From a virus, in IMG/VR virus record IMGVR_UViG_3300045955_000077, positions 1 through 42,767 of that record: a stretch of 42,767 nt of DNA; one strand, given 5' to 3'. Below the pieces are notes generated by a model, which saw nothing but the letters and a program-made list of their open reading frames with translations, had not been told where the DNA came from and did no database searches. Shown here piece by piece: positions 26,642 through 42,767 of this stretch; positions within the stretch are counted from its first letter, which is position 1, and every line of letters begins with the position of its first letter. Both the position numbers and the translations under genes were made by a program.

Positions 26642-26645
26642 GCCA

Positions 26646-27740: not shown

Positions 27741-27741
27741 T

Positions 27742-28536
27742 TTAAGCCCTCACCAGTCCGCGCGCCGGCAGAAGCAGGCCGCTCAATGCTTGACGCCAGA
27801 CTTTCACGCTGCCGCGTCCCTGATTGCCTCGGAAATCGTGCGAATGGCGCACGCCGCCCATGCGCTTGGCGGCTGGATGGCCGGGAGGGCTACCGCCCTC
27901 GAAACTGGCGAGCAGGATATAGAGTGTACTAGTGCCGCCGGCCCATGTCGAAGTGACCGTGCCGGAGAAGCTCGACGTAACCTCGCGTTGGGCAAAAGCG
28001 ACATTGCGCGCGCCTCCATCCTCGGTCGGCTCGGCCATCTCCGTAAATGAGCTGTCGATGCTGTGTGTAACGGCGCTAATGAGCTGATTTCCACACAACG
28101 CAACGCAGAACCCGTTGGTCGGAATATCGATTGAGGCACCGATGCTTGCAGCAGAGCCAGTAGTATCTCCAGCCGCCCCAGTATCTTGCGCAGTCCCGGA
28201 GGTCATGTTGACCGTCCAGTAGCCCATGAAGCAGCCTCCAGGCGAGCTGCCGCCGGTAACGACGATGTCCGCCGTCGTGCCCGTAGGGACATTGGCAATA
28301 GCGATTGCTCCGTCCAGATTATTGCCAAGGCTCAACCCGCTGCCGTTGACAATTGAGGTAGCGGCAATTCCACCGATGGTACTGACCGTGGCGGCGTTTC
28401 CTGAGCCGATCTGCGCCGCGACGATCACCCAGCGGTCGGACGCGGCGGTGCCTATATCTTTTGCGGAAAACGTGTATGAAGTCGCATCGGCGGCATCCAG
28501 CGATGCGCTTTTCCAAGTCAGGTTGGAATAGGCCAC
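27742..28536 (-). CDS. Structural protein with beta-rich repeat composition (264 aa)
   Basis: MAYSNLTWKSASLDAADATS, then ASDRWVIVAAQIGSGNAATV and SSFSGTVTSTWAGGTSTLYI. This layout (opening strand, SDRWVIV.., long Gly/Thr/Ala strands, then YILLASFEG) is found in small phage receptor-binding or decoration proteins. The C-terminal 45 residues (HPAAKRMGGVRHSHDFRGN and so on) differ in composition and may be a flexible basic tail. Unknown function. Confidence 0.65.
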   Translation of the reverse strand: MAYSNLTWKSASLDAADATSYTFSAKDIGTAASDRWVIVAAQIGSGNAATVSTIGGIAATSIVNGSGLSLGNNLDGAIAIANVPTGTTADIVVTGGSSPGGCFMGYWTVNMTSGTAQDTGAAGDTTGSAASIGASIDIPTNGFCVALCGNQLISAVTHSIDSSFTEMAEPTEDGGARNVAFAQREVTSSFSGTVTSTWAGGTSTLYILLASFEGGSPPGHPAAKRMGGVRHSHDFRGNQGRGSVKVWRQALSGLLLPARGLVRA

Positions 28537-28829
28537 TAGCCCACCCGCTCGGTCAGTTGCTTGCCGTCGTTGGATTTGAGATCGCCCAGCATAGCGGCTA
28601 CCGCATTAGCTACCAATTGCTGCACAATCTGCCCGTTGCCGGCCGGCACACCAAACAGGGCTTCCAGATCGGTAAAGGTGGTGTCGATCCAGTTGTGATC
28701 CATGATCTCCTTGATCTCGATGCCACGCTCCAGTGCCTGCCGGTAGGTATTGATGAAGGTCAGCAGCATCTGCGCATGCGTGGCGTTGACGTTGTTGCGC
28801 TCGATCTTGATGTAGTTGCGCTGCGCCAT
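28536..28829 (-). CDS. Small helical virion-region protein (97 aa)
   Basis: MAQRNYIKIERNNVNATHAQ, then LLTFINTYRQALERGIEIKE and ALFGVPAGNGQIVQQLVANA. Helical with a G-rich turn. The stop overlaps the next start by one base. Resembles short proteins encoded beside fibre genes in related phages; no domain name can be given. Confidence 0.65.
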   Translation of the reverse strand: MAQRNYIKIERNNVNATHAQMLLTFINTYRQALERGIEIKEIMDHNWIDTTFTDLEALFGVPAGNGQIVQQLVANAVAAMLGDLKSNDGKQLTERVG

Positions 28830-28830
28830 C

Positions 28831-29241
28831 TTAGGCCCCCGGTGCGTTGATCGTGAAAGCCGTGATGTTCACCTGCTGGCCGGCAGTGACAGAGGTGTTG
28901 TCCACCGTCATGTCGCCGCCGCCGCCGGTGGCGGTGATGGTGCCCTGCATGCCGCACACCGTGCCGCCGCTGTCGTACAGCCGGAAATGACCCAGCGTGC
29001 CACTGTTGTCGGCGCTGGTGTCCGACAGCGGCAGGCTGGAGAACGCCTTGGCGCCGGACGCTGCTGCTGCCATGTAATCGGAGGCAAGGTTATAGGTAGC
29101 GATCACCGTGCCGCTGTCGGCGGTGGCGCAGGTGGCGGGCGGTGATCCACTGCGCAGCCGCAGGATGGCCGACGTGCCGATGGTGCTTTCGATGGTGTCC
29201 AGCATGGCGTTGCGGACTGCCGTGGAGAATTTCAGGGACAT
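28831..29241 (-). CDS. Conserved structural protein (136 aa)
   Basis: ATG 29241 with TGGAGC upstream, just after hairpin copy 4. MSLKFSTAVRNAMLDTIES, then ILRLRSGSPPATCATADSG and LPLSDTSADNSGTLGHFRLY. This pattern (AVRNAMLDTIE, LRxRSGxPPA, GHFRLYD) is common in phage proteins located between adaptor and fibre genes and thought to be virion components. Beta-rich C-terminus ends NITAFTINAPGA. Confidence 0.75.
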   Translation of the reverse strand: MSLKFSTAVRNAMLDTIESTIGTSAILRLRSGSPPATCATADSGTVIATYNLASDYMAAAASGAKAFSSLPLSDTSADNSGTLGHFRLYDSGGTVCGMQGTITATGGGGDMTVDNTSVTAGQQVNITAFTINAPGA

Positions 29242-29254
29242 TTTTTAGCTCCAG

Positions 29255-29276
29255 GACGGGCGTGAACGCCCTTTTG
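29255..29276 (-). repeat. Dispersed hairpin element, copy 4 (intergenic)
   Basis: Stem GGGCG (29258-29262) and CGCCC (29267-29271) around TGAA (TTCA on the minus strand). Minus strand reads CAAAAGGGCGTTCACGCCCG then TCC. It fills the gap between the adaptor gene and the gene at 28831-29241. Confidence 0.75.
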
Positions 29277-29888
29277 TTAGGGTGTAGCTCCTTTGATGCG
29301 TGCCGCCACCTTGTGGTAGCGCCCGGTAATGTCGGATTGCCGCAACAGCGCGATCGCCTCGTTGCGCAGCGTGCCCCAGGTCTGAATGCGCTGATCGTCG
29401 TCGAGGAACGGCGCGGCATGCAGAAGCGCACCGTACAGATAGCCGTCGGAGCAGGCGGACAGCAGCCAGTTGCCGGCTGGATTTTCAGCCAGCGGCGGGA
29501 TCCTGGCGTAGTACAGCATGATCAGATCGGACGAGCACACCGGGCGGGTGTAGATGCTCGAGCCGGAGATGTAGAAGAACCACGGATCGGTGGCGGCCTG
29601 ATCGGTGTACTTGGTGAATGCCCAATCCGGATCGGTGGCCTCCAGCGAGCGCAACGGGCTGGCGTCGGCATAGACGTGCCGCCATGCCAGATAGTCGTCA
29701 GGCAAAGCCCCTACCCCATCGGTCAGGGTAATAGTGTCCTGCGCCTCCATCTGCCGCACCCGTAGCTCATGGTTGAAATTGCTTTCCGCCATGGCAATGA
29801 AATCGGGAATGCGGCCGGCCAGATCGGTGCGGTCCCACAGCCAGTTGGCGACCGATTCCTGCAATTGGGCGTAGTTGGACAGTGCCAT
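29277..29888 (-). CDS. Head-tail adaptor-like protein (203 aa)
   Basis: ALSNYAQLQESVANWLWDRT, then DLAGRIPDFIAMAESNFN and HELRVRQMEAQDTITLTDG, ALPDDYLAWRHVYADA, and LMLYYARIPPLAENPAGNWL-type ending. The sequence Y..LQ.SVA.WL.RTDL....PDFIA.AE..FNR.LR is diagnostic for the phage adaptor family also found in SU10-like phages. It should attach below the portal. The length is normal. ATGA-type overlap with the previous gene. Confidence 0.85.
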   Translation of the reverse strand: MALSNYAQLQESVANWLWDRTDLAGRIPDFIAMAESNFNHELRVRQMEAQDTITLTDGVGALPDDYLAWRHVYADASPLRSLEATDPDWAFTKYTDQAATDPWFFYISGSSIYTRPVCSSDLIMLYYARIPPLAENPAGNWLLSACSDGYLYGALLHAAPFLDDDQRIQTWGTLRNEAIALLRQSDITGRYHKVAARIKGATP

Positions 29889-30223
29889 CAGAACTTTCCG
29901 TCAGTGGCGCGCAGCCATGCCCAGTCCGGATCGCGCAGTTTCTTCATGATGATCCGCTTGATGCCGTAGGGTGACATCAACTCCTTGTAGGCCGCCCGCG
30001 CATTGGGGCCGTGCCAGTCCATTTCCTCGGACAGCCATTTCTCGATGATCACACAGGGGATATCGGCGATCATGCGCAGCGAGCCGGCGCGCTTCTGCGG
30101 CTCGTTCTGCAGCCGCTTGTTGCGATCGACGATGTCCTCGCAGTCCTGCCAGCGCTTGAATGCGACTGTGCCGGTGACCGGATCCCTTATTGGAATGGTC
30201 CTGATCTCACTCGCTTCGGTCAT
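29888..30223 (-). CDS. Conserved head-region protein (111 aa)
   Basis: ATG 30223 overlaps the previous TGA. MTEASEIRTIPIRDPVTGT, then RWQDCEDIVDRNKRLQNEPQ, MIADIPCVIIEKWLSEE and IIMKKLRDPDWAWLRATDGK. The DIPxxIIEKWLxEE and LRDPDWAWLRTxxGK strings are typical of a small conserved protein encoded between the capsid and adaptor genes of podoviruses. Its role is unknown, perhaps a head-completion protein. Confidence 0.75.
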   Translation of the reverse strand: MTEASEIRTIPIRDPVTGTVAFKRWQDCEDIVDRNKRLQNEPQKRAGSLRMIADIPCVIIEKWLSEEMDWHGPNARAAYKELMSPYGIKRIIMKKLRDPDWAWLRATDGKF

Positions 30224-30495
30224 ACACACTCCGTGATCGAGACCACTCCGGCCGTGCCGGCCTGCAGGAAGGCGATCTTCTGCCCGGGGGTGACGGCAAA
30301 GTATTCGGTGCAGGTGGCCCCCAACTGTGCGCTGCTGCTGGTCGCGGTGGGGTTGGAGCCGATCTCGAAGAATGCCGGCTGTGCTCCGGTTGCGACCCGG
30401 ATCACCCGGCATTGCGCGCTGAAGGCAGCCGACTGCTGCGATGAGCCCGACATGGTGAAATTGGCGTTGGTGCCAAGTCTGTATGCCTGCGGCAT
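30220..30495 (-). CDS. Head decoration-like protein (91 aa)
   Basis: ATG 30495. MPQAYRLGTNANFTMSGSS, then FSAQCRVIRVATGAQPAFF and YFAVTPGQKIAFLQAGTA and SITECV. All-beta, with a spacing (RVIRV.ATG.qPAFfeIG.nPTA) that recurs in small capsid-associated proteins next to SU10-type capsids. Starts before 30495 are unlikely. Overlaps the next gene by 4 bases. Confidence 0.7.
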   Translation of the reverse strand: MPQAYRLGTNANFTMSGSSQQSAAFSAQCRVIRVATGAQPAFFEIGSNPTATSSSAQLGATCTEYFAVTPGQKIAFLQAGTAGVVSITECV

Positions 30496-30499
30496 TGCT

Positions 30500-30862
30500 T
30501 CAGGTCCTGATGACGATGAAGAACTCGACGGTGGCCGCACCGGTCGACTCGCCACCGTTGACCACGGTGATCAGGTCGCCGGGGTTGACCCCGACCTGCG
30601 CGCCGCTGAACACCACGTCGTCGGTGGTGCCGGCGGCTGAGCCGGACACCGCCACCGTGCAGGTGCCGGTCACCGCCACGGCATTCTTCTGGATCGACCA
30701 GGTGCTGTCGGTGCCGGTGATGGCGCCGCCAATCACTGAGTAGCCGCGCTTAAGCGTACCCTTGACCGGCGAGCAGATATAGGCGTTGCCGGCGGTGCCG
30801 ATATCGGTCAGGCGGGCCTGCAGCACCACCTCGTTGAACGGCGAAGAAGACGGAACAGGCAT
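30500..30862 (-). CDS. Small beta-rich structural protein, possible capsid decoration (120 aa)
   Basis: ATG 30862 has GGAGG upstream. MPVPSSSPFNEVVLQARLT, then YICSPVKGTLKRGYSVIGG and TWSIQKNAVAVTGTCTVAVS, with a closing GAATVEFFIVIRT. The strand pattern and the position immediately after the major capsid gene fit a decoration protein. A hairpin with U-run (30878-30910) separates it from the capsid gene. Confidence 0.7.
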   Translation of the reverse strand: MPVPSSSPFNEVVLQARLTDIGTAGNAYICSPVKGTLKRGYSVIGGAITGTDSTWSIQKNAVAVTGTCTVAVSGSAAGTTDDVVFSGAQVGVNPGDLITVVNGGESTGAATVEFFIVIRT

Positions 30863-30877
30863 GGGATTGCCTCCATG

Positions 30878-30910
30878 AAAAAGCGGAGGGGCCGGGCCAC
30901 GACCCCCCCC
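30878..30910 (-). terminator. Possible attenuator/terminator after the capsid gene
   Basis: On the minus strand a run of G (30910-30903) can pair with CCCTCC (about 30890-30885), followed by GC and TTTTTC (30882-30877). The stem is GC-rich but includes wobble pairs. It may reduce expression of genes downstream of the capsid gene. Confidence 0.45.
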
Positions 30911-30928
30911 AAGTTGGGCTAGGGATAG

Positions 30929-31882
30929 CTACGACGTGGTGAGATCTGCCACCAATCCGGAGGCCTTCTCGTTGCTGGCCTCCAGGCAGTACTCCGACAG
31001 GATCTGCCGGCGATCGCTGTCGCCGGTCTTGGCCAGCGGGATCGAGATCATCTTGCGGCCGGGCAGATAGCACAGCTTCCACATGTCCATCTGCAGGACC
31101 AGGCAATCGCGGGTCCGCATGAAGCGGTTGGCCTTGACCGCCAGCTCGCCCCAGTCGCTTTCGTAGACCGTCACCGTGGCGGTGATCTTCTTGGTGCGCG
31201 CTTCCTCCAGCGGGGTGGCCCGCCCGGTGAAGGACGAGAACACCTGCTTGTTGAAGCCGCCGACCATGATGGTGTCCGGCTTGCCGCCCTGCTCCCAGAT
31301 CGATTGCAGGACGGTTTTCAGTTGCGCCTCGGTGAAGGCGCGTTGCGTGCCGTCGCCGCGCGCATCGGTGCCATCGATCGGCGAGGGTGACGAGCCGGTG
31401 GCTCCGAAATCGTCGTTGGTGGCGATCCACGCCAGCACCGACGCGGTGAGCCGGGCGGTGGCCGCCGCACCGACGTTCTTGGCGGTATTGCTCCCGACCA
31501 GGGTCAGCTCGATGTCGCGCTTGAGCTCCAGGCCCTTCAGGATCTCCTGATACTCGAGCTCGTTGTCGCGGCCGGCGTGCTCCACCGCCAACTGCGAGCC
31601 GGTGACGCGCGCCACCTTGTCGCTGATCTGGCAGATGTTGCCCAGCCGCACGGTCGGGGTGACCGCGTCGGTGGTGGCGTCATCGCCTTCCAGCACCGCA
31701 TTGGCGGCCGCAGCAGCCAGTGCCTGGGTTTGCCATTCGTGATTAATGGCGGTGGCGGTGCCGGTCTCGATCCCCGACGTGAACGGACATTCGGTCGGGT
31801 CGATCCGGTAGATCTTGTCGATCAGGTCCTCGCGGTTGCCGATCGCCAGGTAGGTGGTGAAGGTATCAGCGGGTAGCGTCAT
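30929..31882 (-). CDS. Major capsid protein, SU10/DUF5309 type (317 aa)
   Basis: TTYLAIGNREDLIDKIYRID, then PTECPFTSGIETGTATAINHE and LGNICQISDKVARVTGSQLA; later GKPDTIMVGGFNKQVFSSF and DRRQILSEYCLEASNEKA. The start (REDL.D.IY.IdPTE.PF.S.I..), the N-x-CQI-S-D-x-VxV-SG segment and the MVG.FNKQ.fSSF string are hallmarks of the SU10 major capsid family (HK97 fold). Length is typical. It follows the scaffold gene with a 3-base gap. Confidence 0.9.
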   Translation of the reverse strand: MTLPADTFTTYLAIGNREDLIDKIYRIDPTECPFTSGIETGTATAINHEWQTQALAAAAANAVLEGDDATTDAVTPTVRLGNICQISDKVARVTGSQLAVEHAGRDNELEYQEILKGLELKRDIELTLVGSNTAKNVGAAATARLTASVLAWIATNDDFGATGSSPSPIDGTDARGDGTQRAFTEAQLKTVLQSIWEQGGKPDTIMVGGFNKQVFSSFTGRATPLEEARTKKITATVTVYESDWGELAVKANRFMRTRDCLVLQMDMWKLCYLPGRKMISIPLAKTGDSDRRQILSEYCLEASNEKASGLVADLTTS

Positions 31883-31885
31883 GAC

Positions 31886-32902
31886 TTACCTCTTGAGCGA
31901 GGCGGCGCGCTCTGCGGCGAGCAGGCGGGCGGCATCGCGAACCGCGCTGGAGCGGCCGGCGTCAGCCGACTGATCGAACGCTTTTTGATAGGGAGCAATC
32001 TGCGCAGCCTGCCGCTCGGCGCTGGACGCGCGGCGTCCAGGGCTTTGCACCGGCGGCATCGGTTGGGCGGCCTTGGCTTTCTCGGCCAGCTTCGCCCTGG
32101 AGGCCTGGAACTTGTCCCATTTCATCGCCTTGTCTATGATGTTGAACAGCCGATGATCGCGAACCGAAGCCACCTCCTGCGGCGAGTAGCCGTTGGCGAC
32201 TCCGAATTGCTGAACATCCTGGGTGTACTTGGCGACCTTGGCCGGATCCCTTAGCTCCGGCCGGAGCGCCAGCAACTTCTGCTGCTCCTGGGCAAGATGA
32301 TAGGCCTGCTGCTGCTGGCGCTTGGCACGCTCAGCGCGTTGGATTTCGCCGCGCTGATGTTGCAAGGCCCGCAACTTGTCCTGCTGGGCGTCGTATTCCG
32401 CCTTTTTCTCCTGCCAGGCGAAGAAGTCCTGCTTGCGCAGATCGTCGCTGGGAGGAGGCGGCATGAAATGCGACACCACTGCGATCGCCTGATCGATGGC
32501 TTGCGCATATTGCTGGGTGTTGGCCTGGAATTGCCGCCATTGCGCATCCATGTTGCGCCGCTGGTCGGCAAGTTCCTGGGTCTTCCTGGTGTAGTCGGCT
32601 TCGCGGAGTTGTCCCCGTCGCCATTCCGCCACCTCGTCGAGCGTGGCCTCGTAGCCGTCCGACAGACGGATACGGGGCTGCTCCGGTGGCGGCGCTTCGG
32701 GTTCTCCGGAATCCTCCAACGTCTCCAGGTCGCTTGCATCGGGCGCGTCATCAACCGGCTCGGGCGAGGCCGGAGGTGTAGGCCGCTGCTGTGGTGCAGC
32801 CTGTTCCGGCTCTTTCCGTTCCGCAACCAGTTGCCTGACCGCGTCCTGTACTGACAAAGATCCTGCAATCCCGCCGGTGGGCGGGGTGTTGCCGTCGCTC
32901 AT
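31886..32902 (-). CDS. Capsid scaffold protein (338 aa)
   Basis: Acidic, Gln-rich and coiled-coil throughout, directly before the capsid gene: QDAVRQLVAERKEPEQAAP, then SDGYEATLDEVAEWRRGQL and READYTRKTQELADQRRN, with AKAMKWDKFQASRAKLAEK-type helices near the end. The segment SDGYEATLDEVAEWRRGxLREADYTRKTQEL is diagnostic for phage scaffold-like proteins of this module. The ATG at 32902 has GAGAGGT upstream, after hairpin copy 5. Confidence 0.85.
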   Translation of the reverse strand: MSDGNTPPTGGIAGSLSVQDAVRQLVAERKEPEQAAPQQRPTPPASPEPVDDAPDASDLETLEDSGEPEAPPPEQPRIRLSDGYEATLDEVAEWRRGQLREADYTRKTQELADQRRNMDAQWRQFQANTQQYAQAIDQAIAVVSHFMPPPPSDDLRKQDFFAWQEKKAEYDAQQDKLRALQHQRGEIQRAERAKRQQQQAYHLAQEQQKLLALRPELRDPAKVAKYTQDVQQFGVANGYSPQEVASVRDHRLFNIIDKAMKWDKFQASRAKLAEKAKAAQPMPPVQSPGRRASSAERQAAQIAPYQKAFDQSADAGRSSAVRDAARLLAAERAASLKR

Positions 32903-32924
32903 GTCGGATACCTCTCGTTTACAA

Positions 32925-32946
32925 GACGGGCGTGGACGCCCTGTTG
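32925..32946 (-). repeat. Dispersed hairpin element, copy 5 (intergenic)
   Basis: Stem GGGCG (32928-32932) and CGCCC (32937-32941) around TGGA (TCCA on the minus strand), flanked by AACA and GTCTTG on that strand. It lies 20 bases before the scaffold start and directly after the stop of the 80-residue gene. Confidence 0.75.
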
Positions 32947-32947
32947 T

Positions 32948-33190
32948 TTAGACAACCGCTTTCGGGCGCACCGATTGCTTGCTGTCGATGATTGCCATCT
33001 CCAGAAGCTGGACGATGCCGCGCACCACCTTGACGTGGTCGGCCGCCAGCCTGCGCTTGGTGTCGTCCTGCGCACCAAGCATCTCCTCGATCGCGCCGTG
33101 CTCGATGGCCTTCACGGCACGCTGGAACGCCATGTTGTTGAGAACCGACTGCGCTTCGCGGGCCAGTGCCTGCTTTTCCTCGGGGGTCAT
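32948..33190 (-). CDS. Small conserved head-module protein (80 aa)
   Basis: ATG 33190 shares a base with the previous TGA. MTPEEKQALAREAQSVLNN, then FQRAVKAIEHGAIEEMLGAQ, HVKVVRGIVQLLEMAIIDS. Strongly helical. Proteins with MTPEEKxxLAxxAxxxLxNxAFxxAV are frequent between portal and scaffold genes in podoviruses. Exact role unknown. Confidence 0.75.
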   Translation of the reverse strand: MTPEEKQALAREAQSVLNNMAFQRAVKAIEHGAIEEMLGAQDDTKRRLAADHVKVVRGIVQLLEMAIIDSKQSVRPKAVV

Positions 33191-33828
33191 CACCAGAATC
33201 CGAACGGTCCACGATAGCCGGCATCTTCCGGCAACGGTTGCAGCGGATTGCCGGCCCGATCCGTGGCCGGACGGCCATCCGGGCCAAACAATCCGTAGGC
33301 ATTGAATGGTCCTTTCACGATGGTCCGGCCATCCCCCAGGGTCTGCAGCACCTCGCCTCGTGGACTGATGTTGGCCGTGTCCGAGAAGCCGCCCCCGGGG
33401 CTGCCGCTGCTCGGCGCGACAAACGGAGAGCTGGGCAACAGTTCCATGCCGGGAGACAAATTGGAGAAGATCGATTTGAGCTGCTCGATCTGCTCGGGGG
33501 TGAGGTTGCCAAAGTTTTCCAGCAGTCCGCCGGTCGCCTGATTGGCCAACTCGGCCGGCGAGCGGTACATGAACTCCTGGTTCTGCTGCGCGGTGTTGGG
33601 CGTGAAATTTGGAAAGCCCGACGTCAACGCCAGCGGATTGAGCACGCCCGGCATATTGTTGAGGCCTTGCCGGAATCCAGCGCTCTGCTGCGCGACCTGC
33701 CGCCAGTAGGCTTCGCCCTCCGGAGAAATGGTCGGCCAATGCTGGTAGCCGTAGTTCTTCGGCCCGGTATCGGGGTTGTAAACCCCGGTCTGCGGATTGA
33801 GTGCGAGCGATTCCAGCAATCCAGGCAT
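33190..33828 (-). CDS. Head-module hypothetical protein starting MPGLLESL (212 aa)
   Basis: ATG 33828 with TAGGAGGAG upstream. MPGLLESLALNPQTGVYNP, then TISPEGEAYWRQVAQQSAGF and FGNLTPEQIEQLKSIFSNLS, ending DAGYRGPFGFW. The first eight residues are the same as in the protein at 36532-36978. Pro/Gly-rich with a helix in the middle; probably a virion or assembly protein. No family recognised. Confidence 0.7.
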   Translation of the reverse strand: MPGLLESLALNPQTGVYNPDTGPKNYGYQHWPTISPEGEAYWRQVAQQSAGFRQGLNNMPGVLNPLALTSGFPNFTPNTAQQNQEFMYRSPAELANQATGGLLENFGNLTPEQIEQLKSIFSNLSPGMELLPSSPFVAPSSGSPGGGFSDTANISPRGEVLQTLGDGRTIVKGPFNAYGLFGPDGRPATDRAGNPLQPLPEDAGYRGPFGFW

Positions 33829-33836
33829 TGCTCCTC

Positions 33837-33968
33837 CTAGCCCAGCAGCAGCAGCAATTGGGTGATCTCGTCGTCGTCCTGCGCCTGCCGGGCGCGCGCT
33901 TTATCCAGTTTGCGATCCAGCAGTTGGCGGGTGCGCTGCAGCAGTTGCTCGCGCTCAGCGTTTTCCAT
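33837..33968 (-). CDS. Coiled-coil microprotein (43 aa)
   Basis: ATG 33968 lies inside the end of the portal C-terminal gene (14-base overlap). MENAEREQLLQRTRQLLDR, then KLDKARARQAQDDDEITQL and LLLLG. A short charged helix with a Leu end. Small proteins of this kind often follow the portal gene; function unknown. Confidence 0.65.
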   Translation of the reverse strand: MENAEREQLLQRTRQLLDRKLDKARARQAQDDDEITQLLLLLG

Positions 33969-35931
33969 TGACTTTTCTTGCCCGCAGGCTGCCGGTCTTG
34001 GGGTCCTTGACGATCTCGGTCTCGGCATTGATCGCCTGCGCCAGTTGCGTCATCGCCTCGGTCAGGCCAGCATAAACCCGTTCGTTGGATTGCTCCGAGC
34101 GTCCGCTGCCGTTCGCTGCCAGCTTCATCTCGTGCGACTGCTGATCACGGACCGATGCCGCAGTATTCTCGGTCATCTTGAATTCGTGCTCCTGCTGCTT
34201 CAATCCGGCATTGATCAGTGCCAGCTCGCGATCCAGCTCGAACTTGCGCTCGGCCAGCATGATGTCCGCGGCCACCTTGCGATTATTAGTCTCGATGTCG
34301 GCCTGCGCCTGCACCGCCTCGCGCTCAAACCGCTGCTCCATAGCGCGGCGGTCCAATTCCGCCTTGTTGGCATCGCGCTGCTGCTCGCCGCGCAGTTTGA
34401 GGATTTCGATCTGCTGGTCGCCCTGCATCTTGAGGGCGGCAATGCGCTCCTCCGACTGGGTCTTGGCGTTGGTCATCATCATGTCGGCCTCGGCCTTCTG
34501 CTGCTCGGGCGATTTCTTGCCCTGCTTCATCACCTGGCCGGCCTGCATCAATTGCTGGTCGTTGAACTCGGGGAAATACTGCTCGGGGTTCTTCAAGCCG
34601 GCCGATTCCGCCATCTTGCGGTAGGTAGCGAAGATATGGCCGAGATTGAGGATCGGGTTGAACGGGTCGCCGACGTGCTGCAGGAACAGTTCCTGCTTCT
34701 GCGCCACCGCGTTGAGGATGGCGACGTCGCGATCGCGCGAGCCGGCGCCGAGCCCGACGTTGATCGACACGTCCATCTCGGCATTCCAGCCCCGCGGGTC
34801 CATCTCCACCCATTCGTTGCGCAGCTTGATCATCTTGGGGGCGCGCTGGTTGTTGCAGAAGATTTCCAGCAGGCAGCGGAACAGCCGTTTGAGCCCGCCG
34901 GCCTCGGCGATGTTGCGCGCGTAGGTCTCGACCTTGGAGTGCTTGACGTCCTGGGTGATGTTGGCGGCGGTGGCGGTCTGGTTCTGCAGCGCCTGCGGGT
35001 CGAGCGCCATGGTCTGCCGCCCGATGCCGGTGCGCTTCTCGGCCGCCATATCGAGGTATTCCAGCATCGGGAACGATTCCTTGAAGATCGGCGGGATGGT
35101 CAGGATGTTGACCGCGTTGGCGGCATCGCCGCGCGACCACACCGTGTCGCCGATGCCGAACGACACCAGCACGTCCGGATTGATGATGTCGGTATGCCGC
35201 GCCACCTGCCGCGGGTTGTTGACCTGATAGACATTGTTGAGCATCTGCCGGAGCACAGTGGTCTTGATCCGCTGGATGTCGTAGAGATCGTCGAACAGCG
35301 AGCGTCCACGCCGCCGATGTGGCATCGGGTTGGGCACGATGTCGGTATAGGGCAGCATGCCGCCCCATGGCTCGTTGGAGAGAAGCTCGCGCGAGCCGGC
35401 CTCGCCGATCATGCAGACCTGCCGCCATTCGGCGACGTCGGTCTCGTAGGCTACTTTGACATACAACTCGTATTTCTCGATCTGGTCCTGGCTCGGGTCG
35501 CGGTTGGATTCGGCGGCATAATTGCGCTGCCGCGACATCTGCTCGCTGCTGCGCGAGGCTCCCGCGCCGAACGACGGGGCCTCGAGGATCAGCTTGCGCT
35601 TGTCGGGATATTCGATCAGCAGGTCGGATCTGGTCGGGCGCGCGACGTCGCCGCAGAACCGCACCCGTGCCTCGTCGAGCACGGTGGCTTCCGGATCGAT
35701 CAGGAAATCATCGAGCGGCACCGGCTCGACCCGCGCCTGGCCGGACTTGATGCAGCGCTTGATCTTGACGTCGATCATCTTGATCGGCATCGGCGGCATC
35801 TGCAGCAGCGGATCGACCACCATGGGTGTGGACGGCATCGATGGCGGCTGCTGCGGAGCGGGCGGGGCCGGCATCGGTCCGGGGGTGGGCTGCTGCGGTC
35901 CTGCCGGACCGAACGAATAGGGGTCGGACAT
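33955..35931 (-). CDS. Portal protein, C-terminal part of a split portal (658 aa)
   Basis: After a Pro-rich start (residues 1-45) the sequence enters the portal at IDVKIKRCIKSGQARVEPVP, then LDDFLIDPEATVLDEARV, SLFDDLYDIQRIKTTVLRQM and NNVYQVNNPRQVARH, with the stem/wing parts around INPDVLVSFGIGDTVW. Residues 450-620 are a long Gln/Glu/Lys coiled coil, as in large podovirus portals (barrel). The N-terminal wing is encoded by the separate gene just upstream (35931-36551), whose TGA overlaps this ATG (TGATG). The portal ring is the DNA gate and docking site for TerL. Confidence 0.9.
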   Translation of the reverse strand: MSDPYSFGPAGPQQPTPGPMPAPPAPQQPPSMPSTPMVVDPLLQMPPMPIKMIDVKIKRCIKSGQARVEPVPLDDFLIDPEATVLDEARVRFCGDVARPTRSDLLIEYPDKRKLILEAPSFGAGASRSSEQMSRQRNYAAESNRDPSQDQIEKYELYVKVAYETDVAEWRQVCMIGEAGSRELLSNEPWGGMLPYTDIVPNPMPHRRRGRSLFDDLYDIQRIKTTVLRQMLNNVYQVNNPRQVARHTDIINPDVLVSFGIGDTVWSRGDAANAVNILTIPPIFKESFPMLEYLDMAAEKRTGIGRQTMALDPQALQNQTATAANITQDVKHSKVETYARNIAEAGGLKRLFRCLLEIFCNNQRAPKMIKLRNEWVEMDPRGWNAEMDVSINVGLGAGSRDRDVAILNAVAQKQELFLQHVGDPFNPILNLGHIFATYRKMAESAGLKNPEQYFPEFNDQQLMQAGQVMKQGKKSPEQQKAEADMMMTNAKTQSEERIAALKMQGDQQIEILKLRGEQQRDANKAELDRRAMEQRFEREAVQAQADIETNNRKVAADIMLAERKFELDRELALINAGLKQQEHEFKMTENTAASVRDQQSHEMKLAANGSGRSEQSNERVYAGLTEAMTQLAQAINAETEIVKDPKTGSLRARKVNGKR

Positions 35932-36551
35932 CAGTAGGCGGCTCCGGCGGTTCTCGTTTCCACCCCGGTCTCGGCGGCAGTCGGCTTGTCCTTGTCGGCT
36001 TCTGGATCGATCTCCTGCCCATCAGGACCCACGTAGTACTCTCTTTTCTCCAGCACCTCCTCGACGGTCTCGTCGTCGAGCAGCATCAGGTATTCCTCCT
36101 CCGAGAGACCGGTCAGGACCTCGGTGCGATATTCCGGGGCTTTCTCCCAAAAGTGCTTGATCACCGCGTTGCCGTGCAGCAAGGCGTCATGGAAGCTCGA
36201 ATGCAGCACCGAATAGCCGCGGCATTCGTTCATGAATTCGTAGTTGATGCCATCGGTGGCCTGCTTGGCCATGCCCTCGTCGTCCTGGGTGCGCGGCTCG
36301 TAGATGCCGATCCGGTCGGAGGCCAGGAACACCCGCAACAGCCCGGGCAGCACGCCTTCCAGGGCGTCGGCCACGTCGGGCGACACTACCTCCGACTTGC
36401 CGGGCTCGGACGGCAGGTCGACGCGCCCCTCGTAGAAATCGATCGCCTTGGTGCGCCGGCCGGCGTCCTCGCCGGTATCGGCATTGCGCGCGTCCTGGAT
36501 CCAGCCGTCACACAGCACGGCCAGCTCGCGGTCAGTCATTCCTTTCGCCAT
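35931..36551 (-). CDS. Portal protein, N-terminal part of a split portal (206 aa)
   Basis: DRELAVLCDGWIQDARNADT, then IDFYEGRVDLPSEPGKSEV and VSPDVADALEGVLPGLLRVF, QATDGINYEFMNECRGYSV, FHDALLHGNAVIKHFWEKA. These are the standard N-terminal portal motifs (F.G.LP..PGRS.VVSPDVADA.E..LP.LLRIF; DALL.gNAVIKhfWE). It ends with an acidic low-complexity tail at the point where the next gene's Pro-rich N-terminus begins. In related phages one long gene covers both. Coupled re-initiation at TGATG would give equal amounts. Confidence 0.88.
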   Translation of the reverse strand: MAKGMTDRELAVLCDGWIQDARNADTGEDAGRRTKAIDFYEGRVDLPSEPGKSEVVSPDVADALEGVLPGLLRVFLASDRIGIYEPRTQDDEGMAKQATDGINYEFMNECRGYSVLHSSFHDALLHGNAVIKHFWEKAPEYRTEVLTGLSEEEYLMLLDDETVEEVLEKREYYVGPDGQEIDPEADKDKPTAAETGVETRTAGAAY

Positions 36552-36978
36552 CGTCCTTCCTCAGGAACTTGCGCAATGTTTCACGTGCACGCCTAGCGGC
36601 GGCACGCACGTCGGCACCGGCGGCTTCCGGATGGCGCGCGAACGGCCCAGCGCCGCCGTAATAGACCTCGCGCCCGACCAGGTGCGGGGCGAGCGCTTCC
36701 AGTTCCGATGCCATCAGGCGGCGCGGCACCATGGCCGCCAGTCTCGCCGGCGAGGAGGCCGGCGCCATGGCGGCGAGCAGGGTGGCGGCCTCGTAGGCGG
36801 CCTGCGGGTTGCGCGGGTCGCCGGTGCCGGCGGTCTTGCCCGGCTCGTCCGGGATGTTGGGCACTGGCGGCAACGGCTCGCCCAGCGACTTGGCGGTGAG
36901 CGCCGGGGCGAGGATATCGAGGATATGTCGGGGCGTTTCCTGCTGGCGGCGCAACAGCGACTCGAGCAGGCCAGGCAT
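36532..36978 (-). CDS. Head-module hypothetical protein starting MPGLLESL (148 aa)
   Basis: MPGLLESLLRRQQETPRHIL, then PALTAKSLGEPLPPVPNIP and AAYEAATLLAAMAPASSPA; basic helical end RRARETLRKFLRKDDGERN. The first eight residues repeat those of the protein at 33190-33828. The end overlaps the portal start by 20 bases. It may be an assembly factor; no family recognised. Confidence 0.7.
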   Translation of the reverse strand: MPGLLESLLRRQQETPRHILDILAPALTAKSLGEPLPPVPNIPDEPGKTAGTGDPRNPQAAYEAATLLAAMAPASSPARLAAMVPRRLMASELEALAPHLVGREVYYGGAGPFARHPEAAGADVRAAARRARETLRKFLRKDDGERND

Positions 36979-37191
36979 TCATCCCTTCCCCAGCCGTGAG
37001 CGCCCGGCATCGGTCACCGATACTGTCCGGTCAAAGCGTTGCTCCGGCGTTTGCGCCAGCCCGCGCAACTGCACGAAACCGAGTTCCACCAGCCGATCGA
37101 GCCGATCGCCATGGCAGGTGCCGTATTCGGTCACGCCCTCGCCGTCGATCCAGGCCAGCAGGTTGTATTCCTGATCGGTCAGGTCTTTCAT
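36979..37191 (-). CDS. Small winged-helix-like protein between TerL and portal (70 aa)
   Basis: ATG 37191 has GGTGGTGG upstream; an ATG at 37230 would put hairpin copy 6 in the coding region and is less likely. MKDLTDQEYNLLAWIDGEG, then HGDRLDRLVELGFVQLRG and VSVTDAGRSRLGKG. The order helix, L..LVELGFV, then V.VTDAGR..L fits a MarR-like winged helix. It may bind DNA near packaging genes. No confident family. Confidence 0.65.
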   Translation of the reverse strand: MKDLTDQEYNLLAWIDGEGVTEYGTCHGDRLDRLVELGFVQLRGLAQTPEQRFDRTVSVTDAGRSRLGKG

Positions 37192-37199
37192 GCCACCAC

Positions 37200-37221
37200 C
37201 AAAAGGGCGTTTACGCCCGTC
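37200..37221 (+). repeat. Dispersed hairpin element, copy 6 (intergenic, opposite orientation)
   Basis: AAAAGGGCGTTTACGCCCGTC: stem GGGCG (37205-37209) and CGCCC (37214-37218) around TTTA. The consensus reads on the plus strand here, although the flanking genes are on the minus strand, so the element is found in both orientations relative to transcription. Confidence 0.75.
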
Positions 37222-37222
37222 T

Positions 37223-38500
37223 TCATGCAACCCACCGCATGTCGCGCTTCTTGTAGTTGAGGCTGTGCTGGGGCGCCTCGTATTTCACCGCCATCAGCCC
37301 GAAGGCGTCGGCCGAGTGCGACGACCAGTCGTGCTCGGGGCCGAGTCCGATATTGCGCTCCTCGTGCTTTTTCTCGTGGTAGTAGCCCAGCGCGTCACGC
37401 CCGGCTTCGGTGGCATGCTCGTCGAACCAGCAGCGTGGAAAGATCCGCCGCACCGCCTCTATTCGCTGTGCCGCCGCACCGCGTCCCAAGCTCGGCTCCG
37501 GGTCCTCGCAGTCGAAGCCGGCATCGCGCAGATGGTCGACGTAGCGCTTGCCGGTGACCGCGTTGGTGTTGAGCCCGTCGTGCGGCAGGTAGCAGGTAGC
37601 TTTCTGGTAGCCCCGCGAGCGCATCAGGTCGACGTAGTAGGCCAGCACCTGGCCCGCGCCTTCGATGTAATCCAGCACCAGAATCTGCTGGCCGACCCAT
37701 TGCACGATCCAGATCGCCATGGCGTCAGCCGTGGCACCAGCCCCTCCAAGATCGAGGAATGCACGAAGCGGTAGCAGCGGGTCGGCCACGACCTTGCCGA
37801 TTCGGCCTTCCTGCTTGGCCTGCTGGAGGTGCTTGGAGTAGTAGGCGCCCTCGAACGCCTGCGCATAGCCCCCCTCCCAGATGTGATCATAACGATCAGG
37901 GTAGCGCTCCAGGTCAAGCCGGCGCTCCTCCTCGAGCACCGCATTCCACCACGGATTGTCGCGCCAGTTGGCTTGCACGACGATGGCGTTGGACGGGCGG
38001 TCGACCCGCAGGAACTCGTCGACCGCATCGCTTTTGCGGCGCGGGTTCCAGGAGAACCAGATTTGCGAGCCGGTGTTGCGGATGGTGGGGCGCAGCAGCG
38101 CGAGCGAGCGAGCTGACAGGGTCTGCGCCTCCTCCACCCAGGCGATCCGGCAGCCTTCCAGCGATTTTATGCTCTCGGCGGTGTGGTCCTGCATGCCCTG
38201 GAACAGGATCAGCCCGTCGCCCGGGGCGGTGATGGCGTCCTTGGTGACGATGAACTCGGTGCCGAAGCCCAGCGTCTGGATTTTCTGCTCGACCAGATGC
38301 TTGGACGACTGTGCGAGGCTTTTCTGGTACTCGCGGATGCAGACGGCGCGGGTGCCGGGAATGCGCATGCACTCCTCGACCAGCAGCTCGCCGAAGAAAT
38401 GCGATTTACCGCTTCCCCGCCCACCGTAGGCGCCTTTGTAGCGGGCGTCGGCGAGCAGCGGGGTGAATACCCGCGCGGTGCCGATCTGGACTTTTTCCAT
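37223..38500 (-). CDS. terL: Terminase large subunit, PBSX/Terminase_3 type (425 aa)
   Basis: Walker A GGRGSGKS at residues 26-33, adenine/coupling segment TRAVCIREYQKSLAQSS, Walker B RIAWVEEAQ (about 118-126) with the catalytic Glu, and SWNPRRKSDAVDEF following. The nuclease domain shows RAFLDLGGAG with the first Asp near 248 and SSHSADAFGLMAVKYE with a late Asp. It hydrolyses ATP to pump DNA into the procapsid through the portal and cuts the concatemer. Start at 38500 follows hairpin copy 7. Length and motifs are complete. Confidence 0.95.
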   Translation of the reverse strand: MEKVQIGTARVFTPLLADARYKGAYGGRGSGKSHFFGELLVEECMRIPGTRAVCIREYQKSLAQSSKHLVEQKIQTLGFGTEFIVTKDAITAPGDGLILFQGMQDHTAESIKSLEGCRIAWVEEAQTLSARSLALLRPTIRNTGSQIWFSWNPRRKSDAVDEFLRVDRPSNAIVVQANWRDNPWWNAVLEEERRLDLERYPDRYDHIWEGGYAQAFEGAYYSKHLQQAKQEGRIGKVVADPLLPLRAFLDLGGAGATADAMAIWIVQWVGQQILVLDYIEGAGQVLAYYVDLMRSRGYQKATCYLPHDGLNTNAVTGKRYVDHLRDAGFDCEDPEPSLGRGAAAQRIEAVRRIFPRCWFDEHATEAGRDALGYYHEKKHEERNIGLGPEHDWSSHSADAFGLMAVKYEAPQHSLNYKKRDMRWVA

Positions 38501-38510
38501 TAAGATCTCA

Positions 38511-38533
38511 GACGGGTGTGAACACCCTGTTGT
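38511..38533 (-). repeat. Dispersed hairpin element, copy 7 (intergenic)
   Basis: Stem GGGTG (38514-38518) and CACCC (38523-38527) around TGAA (TTCA on the minus strand), flanked by AACAACA and GTCTGAG. The same compensating change (T-A in place of C-G) as copy 2. It lies between the giant gene's stop and the TerL start. Confidence 0.75.
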
Positions 38534-38540
38534 TCCCCCA

Positions 38541-41500
38541 TCAGGCCGCCATCGACACGTTGTTGTCGCGCAGCGTCTTGAGAATCAGCGCCTTGAGCGC
38601 ATTGGGCGTCATGCTGGCGAGCAGCATTGCCGGTATTCCCAGGATCGCGGACAGGTCCTGCAATTCCCGCGCGCTTTGGGCAGCCTGCTGCGTCGGCTGC
38701 TGCTGCATTGCCTGTCCGATGGTGATCCGCTGATTTCCGCCGGCCTCGAGCGCTGCGGCAATGGCGCCCAGGCCGCTCGGGGCGGCTGGAGGAGTTCCCG
38801 GCACTCCTGGCGCGGCAGGGCTGGGGGTCGAGACGGCCGTTGGAGTGCCGGGGCCGAGCGCGGCCGGGGCAGTGCGCACCGCGGGTCCGCGCGCGATATC
38901 GAAATTCGGGTCGTCGTAGGTGGTGACGGCCGGGCCACGCGCCACCTCGCGCGCGCCGGGAATGCCCAGGAAGCTCTGAAAATCGAAATCGATGGCCGGG
39001 TCCTGCATGACGCCGAAGCGGGAGGCCACCTGTTGCGCCGGCGTCGAAACGCCTTGGATAATCCCTCGGTCAGTCTTGCCGGTTGGATCGCGATCGTAGA
39101 GTGGCGTCACCAGCTCGATATCGCGACCGGGCAGTTGTGCCTCGCGCTGGAGCGGACCGACGAATTCCTCTGGCTCCGGGGTGGTCCATGGTTGCGGGCT
39201 CAGGATGGCCATGCGTGCCTGCTGGACGGTGATCGGCGAGATCATCGCGCGCGCCGCCTCCGGGTCGCGCTCGGCCAGATTGCCAACGGTGCGGGTGACC
39301 TCCTTAGCCGCCTCCGGATTGCGATCGAACATATCTCCGACTACCCGCGTCACTGCTTTGGCCAGTTCCGGATCGCGATCGTGCAGATCGGCGATGTTGC
39401 GGGCCACCTCCTTGGCTGCGTCGGGATCGCGATCGGCCAGATTGCCAACTACTCGTGCGACCTCTCTGGCGGTTTCGGGATCGCGCTCGGCGAGGTCGCC
39501 GACGGTGCGGGTGATCTCGCCCTTGACCTCTTTTGCAGCGGTCTTGATGGCGTTGATTGTATTCTGCACGGCCGTCTTGGCGGTTTCCTTGGCGGCCTCT
39601 GCGAGCGCCTTAGCGGTATTCAGCATCTGCTCATAGGGCGCTATTCCAGGAATGGCATCGAGCGCTTTTCGACCGGCCTCTCGTGCAGCGCGCTCGGCAT
39701 TCTGTCGGACATCCTTGGCATCGGGATTGGCGCGCGCTGCCCGCTCGGCAGCTTCCGCCATTGATCTTGCAATGCCCCTCATTGCCTCAACGACGTCCGA
39801 TCGGTCGCGCGCCATTCCCGGCAACTGGCTGATGGCCGCTCGCTCGGCAGATTTTGCGGTTCTGTCGAGATCCTGCCTGGTTGGCGCCGGTGCGGTACGC
39901 GCCTGCGCCTGCGCTTTTGGAGCAACAATCTCCCGCGCCATGTCCGGATCGCGCTCGGCGAGATCACCGATGGTGCGCGCGACCTCTCTGGCCGCCTCCG
40001 GATCGCGCTCGGCCAGATCGCCGACCGCGCGCACCACCTCTCTAGCGGCTTCCGGATCCAGATCCGCCAGGTTGCCGACAACCCTTGCCACTTCGCGGGC
40101 GGTTTCCGGATCGCGCTCCGCGAGTTCTCCGATCGTGCGGGCAATTTCGCGTTCATCCGGCAGGCCGGTCAGCAGCGAGGAGAGACCCGGCGAGATCGAG
40201 GGGGTTGTTGTTCCTGGACCGACGAAAGCAGCCCGCCCGGGTGGCGCCTCTTGATGCTCCAGTTCCCTGCCGGCCTGTTGCACGGTGCCGGGTAGCGGTA
40301 TTGCTGGCCGCGAGGGCGGCAATGGCACCGTGCGCGCCTGCGCTGTGCTGCGCGCCGTTGCGCGGCCGCGAGCACCGCGCGCTGTTGCAACGCCAATCGT
40401 GGGCGTGCCGGTCGCCTGAATATGCCAGGGTTCGTGCGCCATCGGAAAAGCCAGACCAAACCTAGCGGCATTGGCATGAACCCATCTGCCAAGCTCAGTA
40501 TTGGCAAAACTGCGTAGACCTTGCTGGCTAAGACTGCCAAGATCAGCGGCATCGCCGCGAACATGTGGCGCATTCGGACTAGGCCGCGCCACCATGCGCG
40601 AGTTACGGCCAGACCGCTCCCAAAGTTGACGTTGCACCTCAATATCGCGCCAACCGGAGGTAATCCCAAAGTCATTGCGCAGATGCTGCGGCATGGCATT
40701 GGCCATGCGCGTCAGTCGGTCCCGCAGCACCGGGCTCATATTTTCCCAGGACCGTTGCGCACCACGATTAGCAGCACCGCCAATCATTGGGATCGGAGTA
40801 ACTTGCTGCTGCTGCCGAATGAAATCGCGAATGGTTGGCGGACTGGTTGGGGCTTCCCCCTCCAATCCTTCCAAGCCGGTGGAACGTGATCCGGTCGGAA
40901 AGCCGCCGGGCAGGCTGGACAGCAATCCAGCCGGTTCCGCAGTTGCCGGCGTACTCGGTGCAGTCAGTGTGCCCAGAAGCCCGGTGGTCGCAGGCGCCGT
41001 CGTCGTAGCCGGTGCCGCCGTTTGTGCAGCCGCATTGACTGCCGCGGCCGCCACCGCCGGATTGGTCTGGGCCACCGCCGTGATGGCAGCCGCCGCCACC
41101 TCCGGGTTGTCCTGCGCAACGGCCGCAATGACCGCCACCGCAGTCGCTGGTGCGGTCTGCGCCAGATTGGCAATCGCGGCTACCGCGGTTTCGGGCGAGG
41201 TCTGCGCTACCGCCGCAACCTGTGCGGCCGCCTGCGCAATCTCGGCCGGCGCCTGCTGGGCAACGGCCGCCGCCTGCTGTGCAACGGTGGCTGGCGCTTC
41301 TGGCGTTGAAATAGTGGAAGGTGCCTGTTGCGCTACGGCTGCCGGCGCTTGTTGAGCAACGGTAGTCGGGGCTTCTTGTGTAACAGCCGTTGGCGCCTCC
41401 TGCGCCACTTGCGCCACAGCAGGAGCTTGCTGCGCAATGGTGGCTGGCGCTTCCTGGGTAACCTGGGTAGGGGCCTCCTGGGTTACTTGAGTAGGCGGTT

Positions 41501-42767
41501 CCTGCTGAACCTCTGGAGTGGGTGTCGGTGGTGGTGGCGGCGGCACATCCATCCACGGAACATCATATTCCGGAGGATCGAATGGATCCTTGGGCGGCGT
41601 CGACACTATCTCTACATCAATCGGCGCTGGGCTTTCCGGCGTGCCCCTTCCCGGTGCGCCAAACAGACCACCAAAAATGCCGCTGGTAATGCCCAGCCCG
41701 CCCAACCAGCCAAGTGCGGCCCGGCCGGCCTCGGTGGCCGCCAGTGCGCCCACACCCCTCGCACCCAGGGTGCCAATGCCACCAAGGATGTCCGTAGGTG
41801 AAAGCGTGTTTGGATCTGCTCTGCCCTGTGGATCAAGCAGCGAAGGCGCATAGTCCCGCAACGCCTCGATCGAGCGGTTCTCAGCCTCGCGGAAGCTCGT
41901 GGTAACAGGATCGTATGGATCAAAGGCCAGCGTGGTCGGGAAACCGGTGACCGGGTCGACGTTGAAAGTCTGGGTAGTTGGCAACCCGGTGATTTCATCA
42001 ATGTCGGGCGTTGGCCCCAGAATGCTCTGCACCTCCGGCGACAGGAACGATTGGGTGGTCGGCATGCCGGTGACCGGGTCGGTTTGCTCGCTCGGTCCGC
42101 CCAGGATGCCGCTGTACTCGTCGGCGGTGGATGGTCCTTCCCAGCCTGGGGTGCCGTAGTAGCCGGGCGCTTCCGGGCTGCCGGGATCGCCGAAATAGCC
42201 GCCCTTTCCGCCTAATCCGCCGCTTTCGCCGTAGCCGCCCTTTCCGCCTAATCCGCCGCTTTCGCCGTAGCCGCCTTTGCCACCTTCATAGCCGGTGGTG
42301 CCACCCTTGCCGCCCAAGCCGCTGGTTTCACCGTAGCCGCCCTTGCCGCCCAGGTCGCCACCGAGTGCTCCGGTGTCACCGCCCAGGCCGCCGCCCAGGC
42401 CGCCATCATAGCCGCCGCCTTTACCGCCCTCGGAGCCCATACCTCCGAAGCCTTCGCCTCCACCGCCTTTGCCGCCTCCGGCATCACCGCCATAGCCTCC
42501 GGCATCGCCGCCGGTCCCTAACCCGCCGCCATCTCCTCCATAGCCGCCGTAGCCGCCTGACCCCCCGTCACCCCCGCCATAACCGCCAGTTCCCCCATCA
42601 CCGCCATATCCGGAGCCTTCCCCGCCGTATCCCCCGCCTGCCCCATATCCGGAGCCGCCGTCGCTGCCGTCTCCGTATCCGGCGCCGTAGCCCTCGCCGG
42701 CTCCTATGCCGCCGCCATATCCGGAGCCTTCGCCGCCGAAGCCCTCGCCCCCGTAACCCTCGCCTCC
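38541..42767 (-). CDS. Giant multi-repeat virion-type protein with M15/VanY peptidase (C-terminal 1408 of 1452 residues)
   Basis: Continues from 132-1. Numbering from Met 42440: residues 1-90 (plus 109 residues before it) are Gly-rich units such as GGLGGKGGYGES; 118-170 hold three PVTGMPTTQSF-like units; 300-500 are Pro/Ala/Gln repeats including four 15-residue units (TSPETAVAAIANLAQ type). At about 561-680 lies an M15/VanY peptidase: ITSGWRDIEVQRQLWERSG, PHVRGDAADLGS (HxxGxAxD zinc motif) and HEPWHIQA. Then come two blocks (four and five units) of 18-residue DPEAAREVARTVGDLAER repeats separated by a helical part. Probably a virion peptidoglycan peptidase, but its location next to TerL is unusual. 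Confidence 0.8.
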   Translation of the reverse strand, partial: GGEGYGGEGFGGEGSGYGGGIGAGEGYGAGYGDGSDGGSGYGAGGGYGGEGSGYGGDGGTGGYGGGDGGSGGYGGYGGDGGGLGTGGDAGGYGGDAGGGKGGGGEGFGGMGSEGGKGGGYDGGLGGGLGGDTGALGGDLGGKGGYGETSGLGGKGGTTGYEGGKGGYGESGGLGGKGGYGESGGLGGKGGYFGDPGSPEAPGYYGTPGWEGPSTADEYSGILGGPSEQTDPVTGMPTTQSFLSPEVQSILGPTPDIDEITGLPTTQTFNVDPVTGFPTTLAFDPYDPVTTSFREAENRSIEALRDYAPSLLDPQGRADPNTLSPTDILGGIGTLGARGVGALAATEAGRAALGWLGGLGITSGIFGGLFGAPGRGTPESPAPIDVEIVSTPPKDPFDPPEYDVPWMDVPPPPPPTPTPEVQQEPPTQVTQEAPTQVTQEAPATIAQQAPAVAQVAQEAPTAVTQEAPTTVAQQAPAAVAQQAPSTISTPEAPATVAQQAAAVAQQAPAEIAQAAAQVAAVAQTSPETAVAAIANLAQTAPATAVAVIAAVAQDNPEVAAAAITAVAQTNPAVAAAAVNAAAQTAAPATTTAPATTGLLGTLTAPSTPATAEPAGLLSSLPGGFPTGSRSTGLEGLEGEAPTSPPTIRDFIRQQQQVTPIPMIGGAANRGAQRSWENMSPVLRDRLTRMANAMPQHLRNDFGITSGWRDIEVQRQLWERSGRNSRMVARPSPNAPHVRGDAADLGSLSQQGLRSFANTELGRWVHANAARFGLAFPMAHEPWHIQATGTPTIGVATARGARGRATARSTAQARTVPLPPSRPAIPLPGTVQQAGRELEHQEAPPGRAAFVGPGTTTPSISPGLSSLLTGLPDEREIARTIGELAERDPETAREVARVVGNLADLDPEAAREVVRAVGDLAERDPEAAREVARTIGDLAERDPDMAREIVAPKAQAQARTAPAPTRQDLDRTAKSAERAAISQLPGMARDRSDVVEAMRGIARSMAEAAERAARANPDAKDVRQNAERAAREAGRKALDAIPGIAPYEQMLNTAKALAEAAKETAKTAVQNTINAIKTAAKEVKGEITRTVGDLAERDPETAREVARVVGNLADRDPDAAKEVARNIADLHDRDPELAKAVTRVVGDMFDRNPEAAKEVTRTVGNLAERDPEAARAMISPITVQQARMAILSPQPWTTPEPEEFVGPLQREAQLPGRDIELVTPLYDRDPTGKTDRGIIQGVSTPAQQVASRFGVMQDPAIDFDFQSFLGIPGAREVARGPAVTTYDDPNFDIARGPAVRTAPAALGPGTPTAVSTPSPAAPGVPGTPPAAPSGLGAIAAALEAGGNQRITIGQAMQQQPTQQAAQSARELQDLSAILGIPAMLLASMTPNALKALILKTLRDNNVSMAA
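42170..42767 (-). repeat. Gly-rich coding repeats at the contig end
   Basis: Imperfect 9- to 12-base coding units giving GGYGG, GGDGG, GGEG and GSGYG strings on the minus strand, with the same type at 1-80. Exact local duplications occur, for example CCGCCCTTTCCGCCTAATCC at about 42199 and again near 42235. Such repeats hinder assembly, which explains why the contig was opened here. Confidence 0.85.

Follow-up and report, generated by a model that had tools for sequence, protein, structure and literature searches.

A phage portal subunit that is probably built from two coupled chains, divided at the tip of a predicted β-hairpin

The portal gene of the phage studied here is divided into two genes sharing a single base, and the portal subunit is very probably a real two-chain protein whose chains are produced in a coupled manner, pair through a β-hairpin and form a ring; the ring itself is inferred, with neither proteomics nor a model of the complex behind it. 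The sequence analysed, referred to as the window, is the entire IMG/VR virus record IMGVR_UViG_3300045955_000077 (42,767 bases). Chain 1 (P0001) and chain 2 (P0002) are the products of genes 1 and 2, and labels such as L001–L323 denote related loci. Reading along the minus strand, the large terminase gene is followed by two small genes that match no PHROG at E 0.01, gene 1, gene 2, further small genes and the genes for the scaffold and the major capsid protein. Two different late-region proteins of the window (36532–36978 and 33190–33828, both on the minus strand) begin with MPGLLESL and have no PHROG match at E 0.01, and an open frame of more than 1400 codons (38541–42767, minus strand), rich in Gly/Ala/Pro repeats, runs off the window. 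The features relevant to the portal are the following.

37223–38500, minus strand: terminase large subunit, given for context (phrog_3717, 4e-49)
35931–36551, minus strand: gene 1, portal N-terminal chain of 206 residues (P0001; PF23899 4–171 of 593, phrog_1216 10–193 of 714)
35934–36011, minus strand: low-complexity tail of chain 1, approximately residues 181–206, beyond the end of the Pfam match at residue 180
35942–35945, minus strand: GGAG, Shine-Dalgarno-like, 10 nt upstream of the ATG and within the end of gene 1 (from the sequence)
35929–35933, minus strand: TGATG, in which chain 1 stops and chain 2 starts, with one base in common (read directly from the sequence)
33955–35931, minus strand: gene 2, portal C-terminal chain of 658 residues (P0002; PF23899 171–592 of 593, phrog_1216 198–701 of 714; model resembling the Pa223, SU10 and PaP3 portals)
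35782–35931, minus strand: Pro/Met-rich leader of chain 2, approximately residues 1–50, with low pLDDT (Pfam match from residue 33, PHROG match from residue 52)
31886–32902, minus strand: head scaffolding protein, given for context (phrog_3927, 2e-45)
30929–31882, minus strand: major capsid protein, given for context (phrog_1328, 6e-99)

Both chains match the same two portal profiles in adjoining segments, chain 1 covering positions 10–193 (5e-31) and chain 2 positions 198–701 (4e-85) of PHROG 1216, 'portal protein' (length 714), with a corresponding division of Pfam PF23899 (length 593) into 4–171 (4e-46) and 171–592 (3e-121). The two chains therefore tile one portal without loss, as expected from the preliminary description, in which a portal was divided over genes of 206 and 658 codons joined by TGATG. 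Its allocation of wing and N-terminal motifs to the first gene and of clip, stem and barrel to the second needs correction: chain 1 comprises only about the first 170 portal residues, and chain 2 the whole remainder of the profile. At the junction, gene 1 ends in TGA and gene 2 begins with ATG, the two codons overlapping in the A at 35931; this ATG is the earliest ATG, GTG or TTG in the gene 2 frame past the preceding stop. The C-terminal tail of chain 1 is of mixed acidic composition and chain 2 begins with about 50 Pro/Met-rich residues, so that the low-complexity flanks, acidic on one side and Pro-rich on the other, are as described earlier. Taken alone, the GGAG of the window is weak, with a duplex energy of −5.8 kcal/mol that is equalled by 29% of control positions. 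The test of full-length PF23899/phrog_1216 membership is met jointly over both chains and the criterion for stop–start coupling (an overlapping TGATG or TAATG) by the TGATG, whereas the usual criterion of a single polypeptide, which lies outside the profile definition, is not, since there are two ORFs with a 1-nt overlap. The window portal is thus a variant of the SU10/LUZ24-type family.

The split gene pair is real and not an error. This judgement does not rest on the earlier argument against a simple indel joining the frames, which is wrong: ahead of its ATG, gene 2 has a further 90 nt of open frame. It rests instead on a switch in codon usage, on an identical contig and on relatives with the same break, and together these uphold the view of a genuine, coupled split within a linker. 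Scoring of codon usage, with four other window genes as the training set, gives preference to frame 1 ahead of the junction and to frame 2 beyond it, the crossing falling at 35936–35906; the last 30 codons of gene 1 score +17.7 in their own frame versus −12.6 in the other, and in gene 2 the opening 50 codons score +13.9 versus −30.8. A second contig, IMGVR_UViG_3300045945_000023, is 100% identical over its 16,863 nt (window 25863–42725), and it may be inferred that the two contigs probably come from different assemblies.

Relatives were gathered by scans with the terminase, the capsid protein and the portal chains, yielding 323 loci, of which 189 contained both portal halves by profile, in one frame in 139 cases and in two frames in 50. 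The 134 loci without both halves were left out; when ten whole genomes from among these seemingly incomplete loci were searched, a chain 1 match in an open frame was found in all ten. The window and its twin contig account for five of the 50 split loci, some contigs were fetched twice, and L221 was dropped because it is broken at a different place. After de-replication by clustering at 93% identity, 27 of 135 portals are split, all at one loop, with the break lying between the two profile halves. The search for relatives with the same split, recommended in the preliminary description, thus returned many, most of them with the 1-nt overlap: among 22 close stop–start junctions (21 loci and the isolate ppBeUSDA76-2, some near-relatives included), 18 overlap by one base, the window among them, one shares four bases and one abuts. 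In the remaining two, L103 and L130, the second start lies 32 or 20 bases ahead of the end of gene 1; they lack a stop–start overlap, could stem from sequencing errors or from recent damage, and were retained in the counts as weak cases. Across the 22 rows, the purine-rich stretch upstream of the second start pairs with the ribosome better than controls do (Wilcoxon p 5e-5; the rows are not independent). A continuous gene with the same linker had been named as an observation that would refute the split. This condition is fulfilled by half. Continuous relatives do exist, two of them with Pro-rich linkers (100 residues in L121 and 134 in L120), but the same loop measures 4–176 residues (median 18) in the 139 continuous members and is therefore naturally hypervariable even where unsplit, and the finding is read accordingly and not as a sign of an artefact. 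The split relatives are related soil phages, environmental contigs and Bradyrhizobium prophages among them. Genomes of the BTAi1 genus contain the N-terminal half in 22 of 117 cases, 18 times in a frame of 192–243 residues and three times in a frame of 713–756 residues, with one ambiguous case. Searches with the window's own chains for closer relatives of its portal returned only the twin contig and distant portals of about 30% identity; its split lineage has a single known representative, the twin contig being identical.

The position of the break was located on a predicted structure. The fused relative L063, modelled from 40 sequences with a mean pLDDT of 82 and a pTM of 0.70, has its best fold matches in the portals of Pa223 (9nwm, E 1e-40), SU10 (7z44) and PaP3 (7sxk), and the split site falls in the turn between strands 160–174 and 177–202, at the tip of a long β-hairpin; in the solved PaP3 portal (7sxk_b) the cut maps between residues 167 and 182. 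Chain 2 modelled alone gave a poor model (pLDDT 72, pTM 0.46), the fold matches of which are still portals (9nwm, E 5e-18). Its first 50 residues and the partner strand are unstructured, with pLDDT values of 43–59 over the first five blocks of ten residues. An unformed partner strand in lone chain 2 would be expected if chain 1 were needed, weak as this model is. The predictions suggest that the two chains pair through the hairpin and form one subunit, an inference made without a model of the complex.

Both halves are, as judged from dN/dS, under strong constraint in the split relatives: in 14 pairs, values are 0.03–0.16 for chain 1 and 0.06–0.17 for chain 2. A split portal also occurs in a Bradyrhizobium isolate, ppBeUSDA76-2 (OP596614), with chains of 184 and 553 residues, a TGATG and a break at the same loop. 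In its annotation, chain 1 is a 'hypothetical protein' and chain 2, with 553 codons, is unannotated (L324:5992–7653), which exemplifies how a two-chain portal is missed by annotation. A table in PMC10127595 gives it as ppUSDA76Be-2 (OP596614), a short-tailed phage (podophage) whose head measures 57 nm and whose tail measures 38 nm; the link between the isolate and the podophage particle rests on this table, and the word 'portal' is absent from the main text of the paper. No report of two portal bands or of a two-chain ring was found in the titles, abstract openings and selected passages searched.

Several other explanations were weighed against a true two-chain subunit. A sequencing or assembly indel in an ordinary single-chain gene could make such a break by a single-base error within the 90 nt in which the gene 2 frame is open ahead of its ATG, and nine named single-chain relatives are all continuous. 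It is nevertheless extremely unlikely, as codon usage changes frame at the stop–start and nowhere else, the second contig is identical, and the one-base overlap recurs in 18 of 22 close junctions, including that of an isolated phage. Programmed −1 frameshifting at the overlap, by which some or all of the portal would be joined, agrees with the frame of gene 2, which is −1 relative to gene 1 in members with a one-base overlap. Yet inspection by eye of the 90-nt shared stretch of the window revealed no XXXYYYZ slippery heptamer, the second frame of L107 is open only 3 nt ahead of its ATG and so leaves no room for a frameshift, and several relatives carry whole genes between the halves; very little weight is therefore given to this mechanism.

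Rejoining of the halves by RNA or protein splicing, through a group I intron or an intein as for other fragmented phage genes, recalls the gut 'Jug' phages, for which the portal gene is counted with the fragmented and/or divergent marker genes and many genes are interrupted by group I introns (PMC12363816). In the window, by contrast, no sequence lies between the halves, and neither the window nor ten insert-carrying loci has an Rfam match at gathering score. The tail of chain 1 has only about 26 residues, which is too short for half an intein, and splicing can practically be set aside. The split might, lastly, mark a defective prophage or a dying gene. Partial second copies of a portal half in some Bradyrhizobium loci are of the kind seen in decaying or rearranging elements, but the low dN/dS of both halves in split relatives (0.03–0.17), the open capsid, scaffold and terminase genes of the window and the one relative reported to form particles (PMC10127595) make decay very unlikely.

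In the two-chain reading that is preferred here, ribosomes finishing chain 1 would restart at the overlapping ATG, a reinitiation that is inferred, with the purine-rich stretch in the final codons of gene 1 aiding the restart; by inference, restart at the overlap would yield both chains jointly and in constant proportion. Because the break is placed at the tip of a long β-hairpin, the chains are inferred to fold as one subunit, in which the final strand of chain 1 would pair with the first strand of chain 2. Portals have twelve-fold symmetry. Twelve chain pairs would thus form the ring, with the low-complexity tails of both chains unattached where the loop used to be; C12 is given in the title of the Pa223 portal entry 9nwm. 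Because the loop tolerates added sequence, it is proposed that splitting has recurred there and that genes have later lodged between the halves.

Inserts at the seam range from coupled cistrons of 61 residues to about 7 kb, the latter being the gap between the halves in the Bradyrhizobium prophage L348. Of 12 loci examined, four (L020, L021, L053 and L193) have a small gene in the gap that overlaps each of its neighbours by one base; in the other eight, coupling is one-sided, different or absent. Inserts with varied front ends terminate in a common C-terminal peptide, GGLLGxIQDYxR, in 17 of 32 loci scanned, some from the same genome, and proteins with this ending lie between the halves in the Bradyrhizobium prophages L347–L351, L353, L176, L183, L187 and L190. 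Within 59 kb of BTAi1 the peptide occurs in two of 359 ORFs, both inside the portal gap, and in none of the reversed proteins. One of two inserts tried against PHROGs, a protein with this peptide, contains a transglycosylase domain; Pfam gave only weak DUF6973 matches for two of ten inserted proteins, PADLOC no match for the six tried and NCBIfam none for the four tried. It is conceivable, though doubtful, that the seam serves as a loading port, with cargo genes in the gap and the Bradyrhizobium GGLLGxIQDYxR proteins docking on the portal and travelling in the particle. Partial second copies of portal halves lie near the main ones (L348:2337–3110, L349:1276–1500, L352:6624–7202, and in L265 and L252), and look as if inserts had arrived by recombination between portal copies.

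The splits do not appear to share one history. Thirteen partial portals were removed before the first tree was made. A tree of 71 rows requires seven changes between split and single, the minimum forced by its starred branches. A main split clade, made up of environmental contigs and prophages of Bradyrhizobium, unites the majority of split members and contains L178 as an apparent re-fusion. A single origin of all splits was rejected (AU p 0.00017), as was, in a smaller tree, the grouping of the window with the main split clade (AU p 0.0007); both groupings were chosen with knowledge of an initial tree, and long branches are involved. Early trees placed the window beside L063 via two long branches, a position that was abandoned when nine added named phages shifted it to Rhizobium phages, where its portal groups with the continuous portals of RHph_N3_2 and RHph_I1_23. 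The capsid protein and terminase of the window are about 70% identical to their split-clade counterparts. At a capsid identity of 70–75%, portal identity has a median of 58% and a minimum of 49% in other pairs, against 31% in the 12 pairs involving the window. An exchange of the portal gene is suggested by this discrepancy, and the simplest reading of the sequence comparisons is that the portal gene of the window was exchanged and split independently.

The portal, a ring protein by which DNA passes into and out of the head, ranks with the most conserved machinery of tailed phages, and the solved relatives encountered consist of one chain. If the two-chain reading is true, the ring can assemble from two chains, with a recurrent cut at one hairpin tip that is also found in an isolate reported as a particle. 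The split would show where the portal subunit tolerates insertions, and a natural two-piece portal would lend itself to labelling, swapping and assembly experiments. A second idea open to test is that accessory genes insert at the seam.

The literature searched, which comprised titles, the starts of abstracts and selected passages and left most subscription journals outside, yielded no description of a portal divided in this way. The nearest case in it is the portal gene of the Jug phages (PMC12363816), which resembles that of the window in being counted among fragmented and/or divergent markers. It differs in its setting of group I introns and endonuclease insertions, the window having a stop–start overlap with nothing in between. 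The portals of SU10, LUZ24 and PaP3 (PF23899, phrog_1216; 7z44, 7sxk, 9nwm) are like that of the window in whole-profile sequence, in predicted fold and in genomic location, with the large terminase gene on one side and the scaffold and capsid genes on the other, but the matched solved examples are single chains whereas the window portal consists of two. The nearest named relatives, the portals of the Rhizobium phages RHph_N3_2 (41% identity over 553 columns) and RHph_I1_23, are likewise encoded, unlike that of the window, by one continuous gene with a 21-residue linker. In contrast, ppBeUSDA76-2 has a TGATG-split portal at the same loop as the window but belongs to a different portal lineage.
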